Below, in pieces: positions 1,562 through 15,520 of a DNA stretch of 15,520 nucleotides. The notes under the pieces are model-generated. The model made no database searches. It saw only the letters and a list, made by a program, of their open reading frames with translations, and was not told the DNA's origin. A program made the position numbers and the translations under genes. Source of the DNA: Physocladia obscura (lineage: Eukaryota > Chytridiomycota > Chytridiomycetes > Chytridiales > Chytriomycetaceae); contig JADGJH010000665.1 in the NCBI GenBank assembly GCA_027596945.1, positions 1 to 15,520 of the forward strand. The letters are read 5' to 3'. Numbering within the stretch: the first letter of the stretch is position 1; each line of letters starts with the position of its first letter.

Positions 1562-3766
<2,205 letters not shown>

Positions 3767-5543
3767 TTAGGCGCCCGGTGCAGCCGAATGTTCAGTCACA
3801 CTTGTCAATGTTTCCACAGGAGTGATATGCTTCATTTCAAACTGCCAAGCGTCCCGGCACATGTCTTCCAGCGTCTGAGGGAAAATTATTCGCACACACG
3901 TACATAAAAAATTTACATATACATATATATATATATATAGCAAGAAAATTTTTTTACCTTTTCAGTCTTCCATCCAAGCTCTTTATAGGCTTTTGATGGG
4001 TCCGAAATAGCAATTCCAGCATCTCCGACGCGTTTCGGAACAATTTCAATAGGAATGTCAACGCCACTAATACGCTCGACAGTTTTAATAACATCAGCAA
4101 CACTGTATCCACTTCCGCATCCAATGTTATACACCAAAAAGTTCCACTCTTTCTTCGGCTTCTCCTCTACAGGCGTTTCCAGAGCAACAAGACGACGCAG
4201 TGCAGCAGTATGCGCTTTAGCAAGATCTGTGATATGGAGAAAGTCGCGGATTGGTGCGCCGTCTGGTGTCGGCCATGTACCAAACAGCTTGAATGTGGAA
4301 GTCTTATTTTCATTTGGCAGCCCCATTTTTGAACGAAGACTGCGAGCAGCGAATCGCGTGACGATTGGGACCAAATTTGGTGGTTCTTTGCCTTGTGTAT
4401 TTTCACCCATATATCCTGACTCATGTGCTCCTTGAAAAAAAAAATTTAAGTTAATTTTTAAACATAAAAATTTGGTTTTGAACTCTAAAAAGAAAAAATC
4501 TTACCGACTGGATTGAAGTACCGAAGCATAGCTGCCTTTAAAACAACAATTGGCTCATTTTTGCCATTATGGAGTGCACAAACGTCTTTGCAAATTTCTT
4601 CGTTGTAGACTTTAGTGCGGCCGTATGGACTCAATGGACAAAGTGGAGTAGATTCTGGAACTCCATGAGGACCATCTGGTGCGTCGAAACCATAATCGTG
4701 GTCATCGAGGGCAGAGCCGTAGGTGCAAGCACTTGATGAAAAAACAAAATGAATTTGCTTTTTATTCTCCTGTGACTTTGGAGGCGCAAGCGCATACTGG
4801 AGCAGGTTGAGAGTACTGCCAAGATTTAAGTTGTAGTACATGAGAGGGTTCGCCCAAGACTCTGGCACTGATTTTCCTGCTATTAACGAAAAAATAATAA
4901 TTTTTTAAGTCTTCGCAAACAAATTGGGACAGAAGGTAATATAGTAAAGGGAAATGGCTTTGTCAGTCGAAAAAAATGAGTGGGAAAAAAAGTGCACTAA
5001 ACACCGAGCAAGAACAAAAGAAGAAAATTGAGTGATTAATAAGAAACAAACTTACAGGCAAAGTGTAGGACAGCCCAAATGTTTGGATGCAGCCGAAAGA
5101 CATTTTCGAGAGCGGGTTTATCAAGCAAATCGACGCGGTGAAAAGCGAGAATCTTCTTTCCAGATAGTTTTTGGGCATCGACAAGGTTTGCTATGGGGTT
5201 AGCGAAGGATGGGTTAGTATAGACATTGGGTAAACAGAGTAGCAGAACAAGCAATATGCGCAGGACATCCAGGTGACAATGCCGTACCCGTGTTAGAAGT
5301 GCTCAGGTTGTCGACAACAACAACGTTCCACTTTGATTCGTCTTGCATCAAAATCTCGAGTACAGTGTTGGACCCGATGTATCCAGCGCCGCCTGCAACG
5401 AGAATACAGCCCAGAGGCGACGGCTGCAGCGATGGCCCGTTGAGCACGCCCAGATCATTGCTGCTGTTGCTACTGTAGTAGTTTATCTCCTTTACTTTGT
5501 TGTACATATGCGTCATTCGGGTGGTGATTGCACTTATTGACAT
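3767..5543 (-). CDS. GALE: UDP-glucose / UDP-N-acetylglucosamine 4-epimerase (five exons)
   Basis: This enzyme interconverts UDP-glucose and UDP-galactose, and possibly UDP-GlcNAc and UDP-GalNAc, using bound NAD in the cytosol. Exons on the minus strand are 5543-5288, 5190-5056, 4879-4505, 4430-3958 and 3874-3767 (448 residues). Introns are 97, 176, 74 and 83 bp, all GT-AG, and every junction restores the family alignment. The first intron has a TACTAAC branch site (5213-5219). Visible motifs are the NAD-binding GGAGYIG (51-57), SSSACTYG (178-185; catalytic Ser180), YGRTK (Tyr216 and Lys220), the substrate-loop region after NPVGAHESG, and RDFLH. The position equal to E. coli Tyr299 and human Cys307 is Ala396, so the sugar pocket should be wide. 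The start at 5543 follows an in-frame stop (TGA, minus strand 5573-5571) and gives a polar extension of about 45 residues before the Rossmann fold; downstream ATGs (Met10, Met13) would shorten it only slightly. It is transcribed divergently from the giant glycosyltransferase gene, which suggests a shared pathway. Family assignment is very secure; N-acetylhexosamine activity is inferred. Confidence 0.93.
3915..3939. repeat. TA-dinucleotide microsatellite in the last epimerase intron
   Basis: An AT-alternating tract lies inside the 83-bp fourth intron (3875-3957) of the epimerase gene. It is likely polymorphic in length and does not affect the coding sequence. Confidence 0.8.
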
Positions 5544-6041
5544 TTGCGTGATTTGAGAGAATAACTCTTGTCAATTTTTTTTTATAGTGTCTCTCCCGAA
5601 AGCTGCGCTCAAGCACCCTGAACTAATCCATGCGATGCAGAATGCGGAATGCTTGGCGCACTTGTTTTGTTTATTTTCGGTCGTTGCAGCCCAAGCAAAC
5701 TCTGCGTAAGTGTTTTCATGGGCTTGCGCAGGCTTGATGTTCGTTCGCCTGCCGCCCCGTCACAAACACCCAATCGCAGGTCACTCTTTTTTACCCTCCG
5801 TTTACCCGGCGGAAACCTCTCAGCCCAGCATTTACTTGTTCATTTCTTCTTATCTGCACAAGCTCTATTCCGGCCACAATGCGCTTAGTTTTCGTGTCTA
5901 ACGAACCTTGGTTCATCAAAATTCAAAATGAACCCTGAAAAAAAACAGAAATTAGAAATTTCCGCTATCTTTTCAAACTTAAAAAATTAGAAATACCAAA
6001 AGAAAATTGAAGCAAACGCGCCGGTTCACTGACTAATAAGA
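5544..6041. promoter_or_regulatory. Shared upstream region of divergent epimerase and glycosyltransferase genes
   Basis: About 500 bp separates the two start codons, which point away from each other. The middle part (about 5590-5830) is richer in G and C than the rest of the window outside genes and contains one CCAAT pentamer (5770-5774), which may be chance. Pyrimidine-rich tracts and A-runs lie nearer the glycosyltransferase start. Short ORFs here (for example 5649-5888) have no family features. A shared control region is inferred from the layout; no specific factor site is assigned. Confidence 0.55.
5928..5990 (+). promoter_or_regulatory. Possible upstream ORF (20 codons) before the giant gene
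   Basis: An ATG preceded by A-rich sequence (TTCAAAATGA) opens a 20-codon frame ending in TAG, 51 nt before the main start codon at 6042. If transcription begins upstream of 5928 it would be translated first and could damp translation of the main frame. The transcript start is not visible from sequence, so this is tentative. Confidence 0.3.
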
Positions 6042-9000
6042 ATGAGAGAGACGGATGTTGTTTACGCTCCGCCGCTGAATGCCCAACCGCCCAAACACTC
6101 CGATCGCCATTCTTCTGCACAGCAAATGCACATTATCAATGTGGGGCTTGGACTCAACTTGGAGGACCAGAACCAAGCTCAATCGCAATCCCAAACTCAA
6201 ACTCAGCTTGAGCATTGCTACAGCACTACCACTACTCAGAGGAGCAGCAGTACCAGCACCAGTAGCACCAACAATCTTTCTGATTCTTCAAACTCGGATA
6301 ATGAGTCCGAATCTGGCCAGTCCGAAACCTCCCAAGAGTTTGCGACGGAAAACATAAACTTTCCCTCTTTCTATGGTACCTTCGAAGCTCAACCATTCCG
6401 AAACGCGTCGTGTACATCATTTGCAGCATTCTATCCAGCCATAAATACATCATTAGAAGTACTTCTCCATCAACAAAACACGTGGGATGCTGTTAATCTG
6501 CTTTTACTTCCACTATCTGCTCTCGTTGATTTAACCAAAATTCACGCTACGGGAATCGATGAAGACCAAGATGATCATGAATGTACTTTGAACGGTGTTG
6601 CAAGTCCCGATCTTGCTTTTGACCACGGCTTTGGTGCTGAGAAATTTCTGCGCAGCGTCAAAAGCGGAAAATCTAAGGAATTCAAAGCCCCAACTTACAG
6701 TGGCCGTACAAAATCAGCATCATCATACACTTCTCCATCGCCGTCGCCCATCATCCCATACGTTACTTCACACTCTAGTATAACTCTGTCAGGATCACAT
6801 TCGCCTTCCCAGGTCATGCGAAAATCTTCTAGCTCTCAGTTGTATAACTCCTCACAAAGTTTTGCAATACCTACTCTCAAGAAAAAAACTTATTCCCGCC
6901 TATCACGTATGTCTACCTATTTGGGTGTCTCATCGTCTCGTTCGGTTCAAATGGTAGTCGAGAATTCTCCGTTTTCTTTATTCTTCACTTTTTGTTGACT
7001 TTTGTTTCCAGAGTATACATGGCGATATTAACTCCAAAAGTCCCGTTGGACAGCTGAATGGTCTATTAAGTTCTCGAACGGTCTATATAATTGCTGAAAT
7101 AGATGTTTTGGAAGTTTATAAACTGTATCAATCGAAACGGGCGCGTCTTGGATTGATGAAATTTGCAATGTTCTTCCTGCAACATATTTCTGAACTACTA
7201 TCCCGTGCGTCACTACCAATCAATGGGTTCTATTTCTCAAATTGCTTTGAAGCACATTTACTATTTCCTTCGCTACAATGGAGTCTTGTCAGATTGTTTG
7301 GTGCATTGCGGGAGAGTTTCACAATCACCGGCGTTCCTGTTGTCCTGCTGCTTGATGAGTACGGTTTGACTTCATGGGACCACGTTCGTGACTTAATTAA
7401 TGGTATTGTTCTTACCAACTGTATTCTGGAAACTTGTGGAAATTTGCGAATAAGATCAAAGTTTGTTATCCGACTTAATTAAAATTTCCAAAGCCTACTT
7501 TTCTTGGCAAATTAATTAAAATTTTTCATTTCCTCCTAAAAAAATTATCAAGCATGGCACGATCCGAATTCGACAAGCAAATGAAATTATTAAAGAACGA
7601 AATATCTCTTCGAGAAGACTTTAGCGTGTTTGGAATTGAAATTGTTGAGGGTCCTCTGACTCAACAACTGCATGCACATGTTATCAAATTCTACACGGGA
7701 ATGGGGTTCAAGTTTTGGATTTCCAAGTCTGTTGGAATTGATCTAGTTGAAGATATTGTGCCCAATACCATGTTGACAGTTGGCTCGGATATGCTTGAAA
7801 TTGCAACAGCACCGGCAGTGGTGAAATGTTTAAAACTCGGAGAAGAAAAATACACAAAATTGATGATGGAAGTAAGCGAAACCGACGAAATTGAGTTGAT
7901 GCCTTCCGACTGGGACGAGGCAATAAAGAATTTGAAAAGCTCGTCTGACTTTTGGGACAGTAACCAACTCCTCTTGATCAATTTGCGTAAAAGCGACTTT
8001 TCAGAATCAACAGCATACATCAAGAACCAATTTCCGGAGGCACCGAATAATTTTCAGCAACTATCTTCCAATCAAATCGCGGAAATTGTACATCTCCTCC
8101 AAGAAACACCTCAAATCAAGCTCTTAGATCTCCAAAAATCTAAGAGTTGCGGCACTTCGGCCAGAGCTTCACATAAACATATTGGTACTTCTGTAAACCC
8201 TAAACGGCAGAAACGTCTTGAAAATCTCATTCTCAATGTTATGCGGGACCTGAAATCCAGAGACTTATTGGCTGCAGTAAGATATAACAACGATCTCGGG
8301 ACAGATACTGACGCATTCGCAGCACCCTTCAAATTAATGCTTTCGATACTTGACGGAATCACACATCCTTTGCAATCAACGCCGTCGACGAAATGGATTC
8401 TGTCGCTGTTTGGGGAAAAAATGCAATCAACAGTTGTTCAGGGGATCAGAATGCTTGCTGCTGGACTTCGACAGGATACTGTGAGTGTTTGGTGCGCTGC
8501 AAAAGTTGGATTTATTCCAAAAGATGGAATTGATGCAGACGATATTCCGTATGATCCTGTTTGGGCTGTTTGTGAGGAAACTGGAGGGAAGCTTGTAATT
8601 TACCTTTCGGATGGGCATCCGCGAATAGAAGAGGCAGTTTTGCATATTTTTATGAAGCATAGTTTTGGATGGAGAAGTGGTTTGTGCGTCATGATTGAAG
8701 CATTGGTCAGGTTTGTGGGGGTTTGTTACATTTTTATTTTGAAGAATTCATACTTTCTCCCCTCTTTAATAGTGCCCAGATGAATAAGGAAGAATACTTT
8801 CAGATTCCTATTCCGGTGAGGATTTTGCATGAAATCAAAACAACACATCGAGCCAAAATGCTCTCATATGTGCGGAACTCGGCCGATGTTATGACAGCAA
8901 TTCCAAACTTTGCAGAGTCAGACGGCGAAGCAAATTACTTAACCAGCGTGTGTAAATACGTCAATACTTGTGTAGAATATTTGCTGATAACTCAAGAAAG

Positions 9001-12000
9001 TAAGTTACATTAACTTCCTGGCACGCAATCCAATATCTATTTTTTCAGAATTCACCGATTTGATGAAAACTTATGTATTTGCGGAGTTCATCCCTCGAAA
9101 TTCGGCTGAAGAAGCTTTGGTATTATTTTTGGGTGAACAAACATTACTTAAAGACGGCATGGCAACCGTGATTTCGATTTGTACGACAATTGACAAGCTT
9201 TTGCGTGAAGATCAAGGCTCTCGAAACTACAATATTGTTTTGTGCTACATTATTTTTGCAATTTATAAAGCTTGCAAGCGTTGCGCGTATCTAGAACTCA
9301 AACTGGCCGTTACAAACATGTCCACTCAAATATTGCCAGACAAGGATCAAGTGGCTGTATGTTTAGAAATGGCAACAACGCAAACTACACTACAACAAAT
9401 CTTCAATCTGTCCAGCTTGCAACTTGCACCATTTTTTCACCGAATTCAACGGGAACTCATAAAAGAAGTCGAAGAAACGAAAAAAGTTGAGAGTAGTGTT
9501 GATCATGTCCCAGAATTTTCGTTTAAAAACTTGGATTTCAGTATGGTTCGACACATTGGAAACAGTTATATTTACATATATCCGATCTTAATTGATATGG
9601 CGTTGAATGCTGCAATTGGTAGTGGATTGTTTTTTAGCAATAGAATGGATACAGTCACTCTTAAGGCCGCAACTATTGCATTTTTGGGTGAGAAAATGGC
9701 ATTTTTAAACTAAATATCTTCAACTAATTTTTTTTTCTCTGTTTTCTTCGGTCAGTGAGCTTTCCATTCATTGGAGGTCTGATGAACAGTTTTGGACGAT
9801 CAATGTCATTTTATTTCTATCAACGGAGTATTTCTGTTATGATAATGGCAGTCTCGCATCGACTTGCAGCGAGTATTTCTTTCCTGACTTTTGTCGGAGT
9901 TTTAGTAGCAGTAAGTATTTACAGCATAGTTGGAAGTTATTGGAGATTGATTGGTTTGGGTTTTTTGTACTCGATTATATTTGGGTAAGAACAAAGTTTA
10001 TGGTTATTGATAATAATTAATTAGTTTTTTTTTTAATTTAAATTATTTAAATTTTTTTAAGTTTGTTTATGATATTATATGCAATTCTTGTCGCATTTAG
10101 AGACCCAGATGTGCCATTCTACAAATCCGCTGGCCCAGTCACCTGTCTACAAAGTATTTTCCTGCTAATTCCGTCCGCAATTATTTGTCGATTAGCGTTT
10201 CAAGATGTCTCAAACTCCTTTCTTGTATGGGGAATATACACAGGAATGATGGCATTGTCCGTGATATTCATGTTTTACAAGTACAGCAAAATTGCGAAAA
10301 TGTATCTCGCGTGGCCGTCAGCAGTAAAAGTAACATCCAAAGAAGATATATTCAGGGTTTATGAAACAGTTACTGAGAAACCAACTCGTATTAATAACGA
10401 CGAATCTGTCGAACAATTGGATCGGCGTATTCGATTGTGGGAGCGTTCCGCGTTTGAATGGTTTGCGGAAGCTCTGAGAAAGGCTATAAAGTCTCCAAAA
10501 GCACTGGTTACTGATTCCGTTTTGAAGAAAAGGCTGAGTCAATGGAACTGGGAACGGCCGTTAATGGCATGGTTTATGCAACGTAGTTCCGTTGATCCAA
10601 GATCGATTAAGCCGTTTTCGCAAGACTGGGATGCTTTGTTGAAGCAAGCTGTTGATGCGTTGACCAAGAAGTATCAGGTTGAAAAATTGAATCGCGGCGC
10701 ATTGTGAGTCGGTTCCACTTCTTTTTCAGATAACTATTATCTGACTGTTTTTTCCAGGCTTTTTCAATTAGAATCTCCAGCTATTGTTTTTGGCTTTTTG
10801 TACTTTATGTAAGCTTTTCCGATTTTTTTGTAAATTCTCATAAGATAAAAAATTTTCTTTTTGGAATACAGCATCACATTCTTGGACAAGTGGGCGATAT
10901 TGATTGCAACCGGACAAGTTGGCGTTTTCATGCCAAATGCAAACACTCTCAATCTGACAATCACTTTTGCAACTATGTTTTTGCTCTTTTCTGCTGGTTT
11001 CCTTGAAATTACCATTTCCAATTGTGCCGAACAAGTCAATCAATTCAAGTATGCAACAATGTCAACTGTTCGAAATCCATTGGAGCTCATTGCACAATAT
11101 CAAGCTTTTACAGATGCAATGTATCGAACAGAGTTACGCAAGCTAGTTGTCCGGGCTGCTGCAGTTTTTGTTGTCATCACAATAATCATCACGGTTTCTT
11201 TCGGTCTACGAGATGACACACACACTGTGTTTCTATATTACGCAATTGCTAGTTTCAACTACTGTGGTCTTCTTGTGGGCTTGTTCAACAAAATATTTAT
11301 TAACATTAACGAAAATTACTTGAACAATATGTTGGCGGCTGCAATTATAATCAGTACTGCAATTTCAGCTATAGTGATTAAAGTTACAAGCAACAATTCT
11401 TTCGCTCTTATTGCAACTGGTTTGAGTTGCTGGGGATTTGGAATCAGTTGTTTGTTTGTGAGAAACCGCGAGCGCTCTCGCTCTCCGTATTACGAAATTT
11501 CAATCGGTATCTCATTCTTCGTTCTTCAATGCTTTTTGTTTAACTTATATTTTCAATTTTTAGGACCAAACTTACGGACTTCTGGTCAACGAATGATTGG
11601 ATATGTTTCTAATTCATTGTCTGAGAGAAGTTTAAAGACTTACTCAGAGATGTTGCTGAAAGAAAAAGACACTTTTGCGTTGTGTCTTGCATCTTCATCA
11701 ACTGGCATGGCTATTTTGATGCATTTTGACAATTTAATCTCAAAGACAGTTGCTATTGACAAAAGTAGCCTGCTACATACAGCTGCGCAAGATCTTGTTT
11801 TCGTTTTAAAAAGCGCTTCACAGAAGTTTAGATCTGGTTATTTGAAAGTTCACGAAGTTCCTGGGGTTCTTCACACTGGAAATGTTTCATATGCAGCAAT
11901 TGGAACAAATTTGTCCACAATTGATTCGATGGATATATTTGTCTCAGGTACTGGAAATATTTCGTCTGAAGAGCGCGTTGTTTTGTTGGGTGAGGCCATA

Positions 12001-15000
12001 GCTCATGAGGTTGCAGAAAGTCTTGGGTTGAGTCACTCAACTGCTTGTGTGATTGAAATACTTTTAAGCTCGTATTCAAATGAATCATTCATGATTCCGC
12101 GAAGAATTATGTACCAATTGAAGAAATGTGATTCAACTCAAACCGATCGAATCGTTTCAAAAACTCAGAATGAAATTTCGAAATGCTCAACACTCGGTCT
12201 AGATATCGATCAATGTTGGCTATATTTAACTCATACAGAGAGAAAATGGTTTTTTTCTGCTTCACTTGTGTGGAACGAAGCAATTCGTACACTAGATCAA
12301 GAAATTAGCGAAGATAAGGATCAGAATCCATTGTATCAACTTTGTTTAAGTGCGCCATCAAACATGGAGGAAAAAATTCGAAATCTTTTAGGTCGAAGCC
12401 GCAGCGAAACAATTTCGTTATGGTTAATGTGTTGCCATGCAATGATGATGGGAAACCTTGCAATCAAAATATCTGATTGTATCACCAATGGAGATGGATT
12501 TCCATCTTTCAAGTTTCCTAACTCTCTGTCCAAACCTCCGAAGCACAAAATTTCTGATGCCTTAAACATACATTTTGCGGTGGCATATTTTGCTCTTACC
12601 TGTGATGTATCTTTTGGTAAAGAAGTTTCCGAGTTGCCAGCAATCACGCGAAGACCATTATGTGCATTGTTTTGGCTTGATGAAAGGATATTCAATTTTT
12701 TGAATCATACACTTTTGTTCAGCCGCGACACATTCATCAAAGACTTTAAACTTCAGTCTGAGCAAGGAGTCTCTCAAATTCAGTATTTTCAAAAAACTGG
12801 AAAACAAACTGTGTGTAGAATTGATGTGTTTGTCAATGGTGAAAAAAACACGTCAATTGTATCGTCAGAAGTTTCTGATTTGGATGAATTGACTTCCAAA
12901 AAATATTTGGGGGTAAATCGATATATTGGTAACAAGCCTGTAAATTGGGAACCCAGGGATTCTGACAAAATTTTCGCAACAGCTATTTTGTACAAAGGGT
13001 CGAAGACTACTCGTGTGCTGGAAGAAAGGTTTCTGGATGAAAAGGGTGCTGTTCAAAAGTCAAATTTATACTCTTATGCTAGCAAATCAAGTAAATTTCC
13101 AACCAGCAGACTTGTTTTTAATCAAGATATTCCTACAAGAAACAACATAATTACTGGTCCTGCTGAACTACATGTATTGGCCAACAGCAATGATCTGGCC
13201 GAAATTCATTGGTTCTATATCGAAGGCCCACATGCTGGCTTGGTTCAATCAGGAATCTTTTACCGAACTCATAAGATAACCAATGAGAAGGTTAAAATAT
13301 CAGTTGTATTTCAATATGAAATTCCAGCAATTAGCAATATTCCGAAATGGGGAATTTTCCGCAGCGAAGATGAACCAAACTGGGAAATAGTCATTGAATA
13401 CGCACCATTTTCCGATTTTGGTGAACCTATGCAACCTTGGAGTGTTCGGTATCGAAATGGATCCTCTGAAGGATGTAGATTCATTTCTTTTGACTATTCG
13501 CATCCGAAACATATCACTACCAAAACTATTCTCACAACAACAAACGAATTAGAACTTTCAAGTTCAGCACAAGGACTTGAAGTTCCGACGCCTGAAGAGA
13601 TACTTGGTTTGTTTTCAATTTACCATGATGCTTCCTTTCTTTTCTTTAATTTTTCACCGAATATTAATTTTAGATGATTATTTCGGTGTCATGAGTATAA
13701 AACCGCTGAAAACAGTTCAAAGTAGTTGCGAAGTGATGACAAATAAGTTAAAACCTCGCGTCAAATACGGGCTTCACAAAACATGGCCCTTTATTCGAAT
13801 CAATTCTATAGAATACTCTGGATCCACTTACTCGACGCGAGAAAAACGCGATATGCTTTGGACCGCATGGAGAGCAGGAAAAATTCCAGGAGTTTTTGCG
13901 AGATACTTTGATGCAAGCATTTTAAAAAGCGAAGCTGCTCTCACAAAATATTGGAAATTCCGATCAGCTGGAAATGTCTTCGCTGCAAGAGAATATCTTC
14001 GGGAAAATCAAAGACTCCTCAGTAATGTACTCTATGTGGCCGATATTCCCGCAAAGCGAACTCGTCTTCAAATTCGATATAGTGATTTGGCAGTTTTCGG
14101 CAGTGGTGGAGATAGCGAGCACATTTCTTCCTTTGATAGTGGAGGCGGTGAAATTAAAGTTGAAGGTCCCGAAATACTGGAAGCGATCTGTCTTGATTCT
14201 GGCACGTGGCCCACTGGCGGGGGAGGCGTAGGTTCGTGCCGTCGTGATGTGGTGGATTCACTTTCGCGTGTTCGTTGGACAGCCATTGCAGAAATTGCAG
14301 GCGCTGAGCTTGAGCATAAAGATTACCAAATTGAAAAGAACATCAACGCAATCATCTACCTTCCAATATTCGACAATGATATGGGGAGTCCAATGGAAAA
14401 TATTTACAAGACTTTTCCATTTCGAAGTTTACGGGATAGGAATGTCAGAACAACAGATAAAATTGTTTCTCTCAAATTTGTCCCGATTATTGTAGAGCTT
14501 ATTCATGCTTGCATGACAGAAGATCTAGAAACAAGGCGGGTTCAACAAGATGAGCAATTAATCCTTTCATTTTACGACTATTTCAAAACGCATGACTGGC
14601 GAAAATCTTGGGATCATTCGCTTACACAACGGATGTGGATGGCAACGTTTCTAGAAAAAGCCAAAGAGATGGAAAACGATGGAAGACTTCTTAAACACGA
14701 ATCGCCGACCCTTGCTCATATCAGTATGCTGTTCACTTTATTTTCTAGACTACTTTTAATTCTCAGTAGAGAGATTCCAAACGTTCCAGTTGTTCACGTT
14801 TCCCATCACGGAACCCAATCTTTGATTGCTGTTGTTGCGAAAGTTGTTCACGGATCATCTGTTATTATTTGGGATCATGGAATGCTTTGGCGTGAGCGAC
14901 TGTTTGCTCTTGGTAGAGATCCAATGCCATCATTTGCTCAAATTGGCTTTTCAGGATTAACAAGACTTTGTACTAGATTAGCGTATAATAGGTTTGTAAT

Positions 15001-15520
15001 TCAAATTTCTTTATTGTTGATATTAACACAGTATCAATAAAAATCTTTTTACGTTAGAGCTGACTATGTAACTCCATGCACTAATGTTCAAAATGTCATG
15101 TGGGCAGCCCATTTGGCAGGAGGTAATGAAACTTCAATAAATTTAGAATAAAAAAACTGAACTGATGTATTTTCCAGGCAAATATCTCAATGATTTTGAA
15201 CGAGTTGCACTATTATCAAAATGTTCAGCAGTTTTGAATGGAATGAATTTAAAACGGTTCAGTATCAAGCGCGAACTGGCTCGGAAAACACCAACGGCTG
15301 TTATGCTTTCACATATTTCGCCTGTAAAAGACGTGATGAACGCAATCAAGGCAGCCTATCATATAGTTCATGAATTCAAAGTATCGAATTACGAGCTTCA
15401 CGTTTACGGATCGCCAAATACGGATCTTTCCTACACGTTGGCGTGCAATGCAGCAATCAAAGAATTAAATCTTGAAAACAATGTCTTCCTCAAAGGACTT
15501 GGAAACCCAACAAATGTGTT
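6042..15520 (+). CDS. Giant membrane polysaccharide synthase, PelG-like exporter + PelF-like GT4 (Gtb3/Gt4c-like), partial 3'
   Basis: Twelve exons are supported: 6042-6953, 7012-7460, 7553-8710, 8773-8999, 9049-9687, 9756-9984, 10062-10703, 10758-10808, 10872-13606, 13674-14991, 15058-15122 and 15178 to the edge (2,922 codons so far). The eleven introns are 49-92 bp, GT-AG, and each restores one frame. Domains by residue: 1-320 polar, Ser/Thr/Gln-rich and probably disordered; about 327-600 alternating strands and helices; about 1085-1270 and 1418-1670 hydrophobic segments with a polar loop of about 145 residues between them; 1670-2515 soluble and unrecognised; about 2515-2790 PelF N-terminal half; from 2790 GT4 C-terminal half. 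It probably polymerises a polysaccharide from a nucleotide sugar and moves it across the plasma membrane. The start at 6042 is the first ATG after an in-frame TGA (6030-6032) and has A at -3. The weakest junctions are the first donor (GTAGTC) and the second intron. The 3' end, including the usual GT4 glutamate motif, lies beyond the window. Confidence 0.87.
6210..6345 (+). repeat. Low-complexity Ser/Thr/Asn-coding tract in exon 1
   Basis: Imperfect AGC/ACC triplet runs encode a Ser/Thr-rich segment followed by Ser/Asn/Glu-rich sequence, directly after a Gln/Ser/Thr stretch. This is typical of a disordered tail and possibly phosphorylated. It is coding, not an independent element. Confidence 0.65.
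7078..7999 (+). other. Barrel-like alpha/beta region of the giant protein (about residues 327-600)
   Basis: The translated exons 2-3 show a run of short hydrophobic strands, each followed by a helical stretch: YIIAEID, GFYFS, PVVLLLDE, NCILET, FGIEIV, KFWIS, LEIAT, KLMMEVSE and LLLINLR. Several strands end in acidic residues. That rhythm is what an (alpha/beta)8 barrel would give, but no glycoside hydrolase family motif was recognised, so fold and function are inference only. Confidence 0.35.
9552..11577 (+). other. Multi-pass membrane region resembling PelG
   Basis: Exons 5-9 encode about 12-13 hydrophobic segments: roughly residues 1088-1110, 1116-1140, 1152-1180, 1186-1212, 1222-1245, 1250-1272, then 1420-1450, 1462-1485, 1527-1550, 1556-1577, 1586-1604, 1606-1628 and 1640-1668. 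The second block begins with FLDKWAIL, then a segment entering a polar helical stretch of about 45 residues with alternating acidic and basic residues, then more membrane spans. PelG, a MOP-superfamily exporter, has the same order: a (W/L)-x-DK-x(2)-(F/I) segment, a helix-rich loop, then C-terminal spans. This similarity is from memory and from topology, not an alignment score. Confidence 0.6.
14172..15520 (+). other. PelF-like glycosyltransferase family 4 region, cut by the window edge
   Basis: The region opens with SGTWPTGGGGVGS (about residue 2520), the glycine-rich start of PelF-type GT-B enzymes (DUF3492), followed by a WTAIAEIAG strand. Further on come VSHHGTQSLIA (about 2723), DHGMLWRERL (about 2748), LAYNRADYVTP (about 2782, across an intron), LNGMNLKRF (about 2828, equal to the usual IPNGVD-x-xRF) and SHISPVKD (about 2855). 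These follow the PelF order closely. The EX7E-type nucleotide-sugar motif would fall past the right edge. Confidence 0.85.

Follow-up and report, generated by a model that had tools for sequence, protein, structure and literature searches.

The window analysed here is an entire contig (JADGJH010000665.1, 15,520 nucleotides) of the fungus Physocladia obscura (Chytriomycetaceae), on which a UDP-hexose 4-epimerase gene (minus strand) and a giant gene for a PelF-type GT4 glycosyltransferase (plus strand) lie head to head. Both gene models hold up, with 498 bp between the two starts, and so does the divergent arrangement proposed in a preliminary description made from the sequence alone; the host suspected there, an early-diverging fungus, is indeed a chytrid, as established by protein searches and taxonomy. 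The best reading of the locus is that it carries a chytrid synthase of the galactosaminogalactan (GAG) type beside an epimerase probably able to handle UDP-N-acetylgalactosamine (UDP-GalNAc), with the pathway otherwise dispersed; the genome searched comprised 21.76 Mb in 1222 contigs. The features are as follows.

3767..5543, minus strand: UDP-hexose 4-epimerase gene, 448 aa; exons 5543-5288, 5190-5056, 4879-4505, 4430-3958, 3874-3767 (gene model, PF01370, PDB epimerases).
5544..6041, no strand: stretch of 498 bp separating the two start codons, a possible shared promoter (gene models).
6042..15520, plus strand: giant PelF-type GT4 synthase gene, 13 exons, 2903 aa present, cut by the contig end (gene model, homologs).
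Exons of the giant gene, plus strand: 6042-6953, 7012-7460, 7553-8710, 8773-8999, 9049-9687, 9756-9984, 10062-10703, 10758-10808, 10872-11506, 11564-13606, 13674-14991, 15058-15122, 15178-15520.
7030..7800, plus strand: N-terminal barrel, resembling GH191/GH166/GH114 endo-galactosaminidases in the AlphaFold model of an Obelidium homolog (approximate, intron-spanning, hand-placed from alignment).
8414..8976, plus strand: repeat domain A, ahead of the membrane part (approximate, hand-placed; hhalign of A against A').
9501..11587, plus strand: multi-pass membrane domain, predicted MOP-superfamily fold (approximate, intron-spanning, hand-placed; hydropathy, AlphaFold model of the Obelidium homolog, fold searches).
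11840..12385, plus strand: repeat domain A', behind the membrane part (approximate, hand-placed).
13832..15520, plus strand: PelF-like GT4 region, end missing (DUF3492 match at 14198-14992; corresponding region of a paralog).

The giant gene starts at 6042 and has 13 exons separated by GT-AG introns, with a frame that stays uninterrupted for 2903 aa, up to where the contig stops. The NCBI model (HK100_011195, partial; P0009 in our set) is 97% identical to ours (2876 columns, counting gaps); it omits most of exon 9756-9984 and nearly all of exon 10758-10808, both coding for stretches of the membrane domain, as well as the final 27 residues. A complete paralog of 2974 aa lies on another contig (C103); all 12 intron phases are common to the two genes, and a 57-base intron of the giant gene was recognised through this comparison. 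The GT4 E-x7-E motif (E2823/E2831 of the paralog) falls just beyond the contig end, the window copy stopping shortly before it. The genome search yielded two giant genes, and four Physocladia proteins are among the matches listed; therefore the genome copy or that search misses some. The 93-97% protein identity of the two genes at residues 2443-2809 raised the suspicion of gene conversion, which was dismissed on finding synonymous sites at or near saturation along the gene (synonymous divergence at least 1.19 wherever computable). Adjoining the paralog on C103 (2719-9020, minus strand), and all in the same direction, are a helicase open reading frame (ORF), an RNA-dependent RNA polymerase (RdRP; PF05183 at E = 7e-94), and the end of an RdRP with a poly(A)-polymerase-like domain behind it. 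The RNA interference complex RDRC of fission yeast combines these same three activities, helicase, RdRP, and poly(A) polymerase, and the run is perhaps one fused gene.

DUF3492 (PF11997) is the sole Pfam family above the cut-off in the giant protein (E = 4e-12, first gene model). Among NCBIfam profiles, PelF gave the best E-value for the first giant-family member and matched all eight members; the GT region of the family aligns with bacterial PelF at 99.7% in hhalign (bacterial profile of seven regions, from 10 matches in 9 of 52 genomes), and the PelF-type GT4 of the preliminary description is thereby supported. Hydropathy places a multi-pass membrane domain in the same chain as the GT4. The likeness to PelG, itself an MOP-type membrane protein, was also proposed and survives at the level of predicted fold, a MOP transporter fold being predicted for the Obelidium homolog by AlphaFold and fold searches, but not at the level of sequence: the PelG profile PF16933 has no match in the Physocladia genome (a Thermotoga control was positive) or in any of the nine giant-family membrane regions tested, and hhalign gives 1.5% for the whole membrane region and 15.6% for its second half. 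PelD and PelE likewise have no sequence match in the giant family by profile searches and hhalign. Repeat domains A and A' align with each other (hhalign 98.1%, E = 1.3e-13). Nothing was detected for the N-terminal barrel at the sequence level, and its resemblance to GAG/Pel galactosaminidases is predicted from the modelled structure of the Obelidium homolog (a family missing from the VIA-align listing is not thereby excluded). Its candidate catalytic residues by conservation are D345 (30 of 34 chytrid rows) and E409 (32 of 34; 58 of 71 overall), 64 apart. A barrel resembling glycoside hydrolases in Gtb3 was not found described in the open-licence literature.

Relatives were sought with the GT part of the C103 paralog under a length filter. 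The best 110 of 3429 candidates come from chytrids sensu lato (Neocallimastix, Anaeromyces, and Gonapodya among them), the ichthyosporeans Sphaeroforma, Creolimax, and Ichthyophonus, and from Corallochytrium, Pezizomycotina, and Trichosporon asahii; Creolimax, Ichthyophonus, and Corallochytrium are the genera that we take the EukProt prefixes CFRG, Ihof, and Clim to denote. Aspergillus fumigatus Gtb3 is not named among these matches, and comparison was made via other species. For many listed rows BLAST also aligns segments beyond the GT, although for some Metarhizium, Venturia, and the Trichosporon row the match is confined to the GT part. We aligned 71 sequences, namely 69 hand-chosen, near-complete, and non-redundant rows of the 110 and the two Physocladia models; from residue 301 on, this alignment has positions kept in 90% of rows or more. 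As judged from these alignments, the giant protein is related over its full length to the mould GAG synthases, with homology along the chain, and the expected kinship with Gtb3-type enzymes and PelF was found, through giant GTs of Pezizomycotina and Trichosporon. Like Gtb3/Gt4c of A. fumigatus and MrGtb of Metarhizium, it combines giant size, a membrane region, and a C-terminal PelF-like GT4, with chain-long homology traced via Aspergillus, Metarhizium, and Trichosporon members; unlike them it lies outside a five-gene cluster, occurs in multiple copies, and has a full-length identity of 18-22% to the ascomycete and Trichosporon GTs (three compared). The giant GTs of Metarhizium rileyi and Aspergillus are 27% identical, and 28% has been published for MrGtb and Gtb3 (PMC8224951). 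With the bacterial Pel system (PelD, PelE, PelF, and PelG of the inner membrane, and the hydrolase-deacetylase PelA) the chytrid protein shares PelF homology and, by prediction, a MOP-type membrane part and a barrel resembling a hydrolase like that of PelA, but it is one fused chain where the Pel proteins are separate. Pel is an alpha-1,4 polymer of galactosamine and N-acetylgalactosamine, close to GAG (PMC9135694). Our searches of the open-licence literature found no description of GAG synthases in Ichthyosporea or chytrids.

A bacterial origin of the fused gene, raised by two matches in prokaryotic metagenome-assembled genomes, was rejected, the neighbouring ORFs on both contigs reading as eukaryotic contamination. 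The contigs concerned are SUTP01000071.1 (Methanosphaera) and NYXK01000054.1 (Deltaproteobacteria), and the giant synthase genes on them are of eukaryotic type. One unnamed family member of 4282 aa (P0050) has additional Pfam domains, PF00169 and PF00621, which we take to be PH and RhoGEF.

The epimerase model (five exons, GT-AG introns, stop ending at 3767) encodes an uninterrupted protein of 448 aa that matches Pfam Epimerase (PF01370, E = 6e-39), has UDP-glucose 4-epimerases as its top PDB matches (E = 4e-66), and carries a YxxxK motif at 216-220. Among the best 120 of 7880 matches, its close relatives are nine proteins of Physocladia, Entophlyctis, Obelidium, Rhizoclosmatium, and Chytriomyces; three of these genera were assigned to Chytriomycetaceae by taxonomy look-up, and the other two presumably belong there. 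Scores fall from 440 to 263 bits after these nine (one short fragment passed over), and the next rows are 39-44% identical. Ala396 lies in the column that we take, from the human and Escherichia coli sequences, to be that of human Cys307 and E. coli Tyr299; the residue is Ala in all nine Chytridiales relatives and Cys in 82 of the 111 other listed rows. Dual-function 4-epimerases are described as having a small residue at the specificity position (PMC10482301), and the window enzyme probably accepts UDP-N-acetylglucosamine/UDP-GalNAc. Like Uge3, the epimerase of the GAG cluster, it is a UDP-hexose 4-epimerase with YxxxK and a small specificity residue that adjoins a giant GT; it differs in belonging to a small Chytridiales clade.

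Deacetylase and hydrolase partners lie outside the window, as the preliminary description noted, but their homologs are present on other contigs: an Agd3-type deacetylase at two loci, GH114 at three, and spherulin-4 at one, none on a contig in common with a giant gene. The two Agd3 proteins match PF25115 (E = 2e-93 and 3e-93) and PF25116 (E = 9e-63 and 2e-47), confirming a CE18 deacetylase with CBM87. Of the products of uge3, agd3, sph3, and ega3, the epimerase alone has its gene next to the giant gene, the contigs being short and distant linkage possible. In the best 28 of 7998 Agd3 candidates scored, taken with the giant-protein matches, at least eight species have both families listed. Linkage in other chytrids was judged from locus tags and the sizes of source contigs in protein listings; giant gene and Agd3 have consecutive tags in Dinochytrium kinnereticum (HDU67_004483/004484, contig of 110139 bases) and Phlyctochytrium planicorne (HDU97_007244/007245, contig of 18279 bases). 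Five chytrid species, Gonapodya and anaerobic ones among them, have been noted to carry Agd3 homologs (PMC7229062), and a GH114 expansion is on record for Neocallimastigomycota (PMC8778642). In the text cited, the five-gene GAG cluster is reported from Pezizomycotina and T. asahii only, the proteomes queried being those of ascomycetes and basidiomycetes (PMC4817252). Three giant synthase proteins of Obelidium come from contigs of one size (487203 bases) and four Agd3 proteins from another (402532 bases), hinting at local gene-family expansion.

GAG is a sticky, galactosamine-containing adhesive and virulence coat of moulds. It is probable, in our judgement, that the giant gene encodes a chytrid GAG synthase-exporter of the Gtb3 family, working with the adjoining epimerase, Agd3, GH114, and spherulin-4. 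The cytosolic PelF-like GT4, a retaining enzyme, would polymerise UDP-GalNAc and UDP-Gal, the epimerase supplying UDP-Gal and probably UDP-GalNAc; the MOP-type domain of the same chain would pass the polymer outward, while the galactosaminidase-like N-terminal barrel and the two repeat domains flanking the membrane part may grip, trim, or gate it. Outside the cell, Agd3 would deacetylate the polymer to a cationic adhesive, and the GH114 and spherulin-4 enzymes would cut it.

Several observations weigh against this proposal. The Physocladia paralog scores 82.9 bits against the PelF equivalog NF038011 and misses its cut-off of 100 bits, and the 18-22% identity to the mould enzymes belongs here too. 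Giant gene and Agd3 are adjacent in two of the eight species with both listed, with contigs of differing size in the other six; Dinochytrium and Phlyctochytrium are of the same family and their giant proteins are sisters in the tree, so this linkage may be one inherited event. In Obelidium the epimerase is on a contig of 177530 bases and the giant genes are on contigs of 487203 and 151762 bases. The epimerase clade also includes Rhizoclosmatium and Chytriomyces, for which neither giant gene nor Agd3 is among the matches listed (a weak absence, subject to the limits on candidates and gene-model length), and therefore the window epimerase may be a general one.

Nearly as likely as its opposite is that the pair itself is accidental, the enzyme being a general epimerase of Leloir metabolism or glycosylation under no common regulation with its neighbour. 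The second Physocladia epimerase has no giant gene within 8 kb upstream, the C103 paralog has the helicase/RdRP run at its flank and no adjoining epimerase, and the separation in Obelidium and the genera with an epimerase and no listed giant gene point the same way. Against accident stand the chance of such adjacency, roughly 0.0014 (a rough count from four giant genes, two epimerases, and about 11,200 genes judged from locus tag number, for a pair chosen post hoc), and the presence of uge3 and gtb3 in one A. fumigatus cluster (PMC4817252). The preliminary description had seen here a minimal locus for a polysaccharide, and that was not supported: its partner genes are dispersed. Conservation of the pair in relatives fared little better, the two genes being apart in Obelidium and, of the two giant genes found in the Physocladia genome, only the window copy being paired. 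The idea of a compact module is weak because of these unpaired copies, the Obelidium contigs, and the Rhizoclosmatium and Chytriomyces epimerases.

The age of the family bears on a second alternative, somewhat unlikely in our view, that horizontal transfer explains more of its spread over chytrids, Ichthyosporea, and moulds than descent does. When 54 of the 71 aligned rows are placed in an unrooted tree, 29 chytrid-type rows, all except P0073, form one branch (support of 100 in the SH-like approximate likelihood ratio test, SH-aLRT), which speaks against transfer; Ichthyosporea and Corallochytrium come next (97), with ascomycetes and Trichosporon apart. P0073, from Chytridiales sp. JEL 0842, is placed next to the ascomycetes, and the second row of Corallochytrium (P0052) stands by itself, both on long branches; each is a second and divergent giant synthase in its organism. 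The proteins of Chytridiaceae (Dinochytrium, Phlyctochytrium) group with Rhizophlyctis (SH-aLRT 96), not with Chytriomycetaceae, in conflict with the NCBI families; this may be an old duplication, a transfer, or an error. The notion that the chytrid part of the tree follows orders was accordingly rejected after taxonomy look-ups, and because of this departure the case for transfer gains weight and that for an ancient family loses some, but old duplications would explain the mismatch as well, several species having several copies. A tree of 38 rows rooted on bacterial PelF has its root on a very long branch and recovers chytrid monophyly in only 28% of 200 bootstrap trees; it groups Ichthyosporea with the moulds, in line with transfer, and a clade of chytrids and Dikarya is 7.04 log units worse and not rejected (approximately unbiased test, p = 0.0955). 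GAG genes are described as patchy in distribution, and their movement into Trichosporon has been proposed (PMC4817252); the text cited leaves the origin of the GAG pathway to future work (PMC8224951). Descent from an early opisthokont is compatible with these trees. A bolder version, rather doubtful as yet, would make the family an ancient opisthokont polymer machine that predates the split of fungi and Ichthyosporea and unites synthase, MOP exporter, and Pel/GAG-hydrolase-like barrel in one chain; in chytrids the barrel may have kept endo-galactosaminidase activity and edit the polymer from inside as it grows.

It is quite unlikely that this Gtb3/PelF-family synthase makes another hexose polymer (for example a galactan or a GlcNAc-based coat), with the Agd3 and GH114 homologs acting on other material: long branches part the chytrid clade from the ascomycetes, several copies per species (at least four Physocladia proteins listed) suggest diversification, and GT4 domains change donor easily, but Agd3 homologs adjoin the giant gene in Dinochytrium and Phlyctochytrium, and at least eight species have the two families listed together.

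If the giant gene does encode a GAG-type synthase, then its presence in chytrids with Agd3, GH114, and spherulin-4 partners, together with synthases in unicellular relatives of animals, shifts the question of GAG origin towards the base of the opisthokonts and hints that a GAG-type coat is older than the moulds. Aquatic fungi, unknown from the disease setting of moulds, are thus offered as GAG models, and the predicted order of barrel, repeat, MOP domain, repeat, and GT4 is a testable model of polymer synthesis and export by one chain, the mould enzymes included.

Elsewhere in the window, positions 1562-2791 (minus strand) encode the C-terminal part of an HSP70 (PF00012, E = 8e-135).

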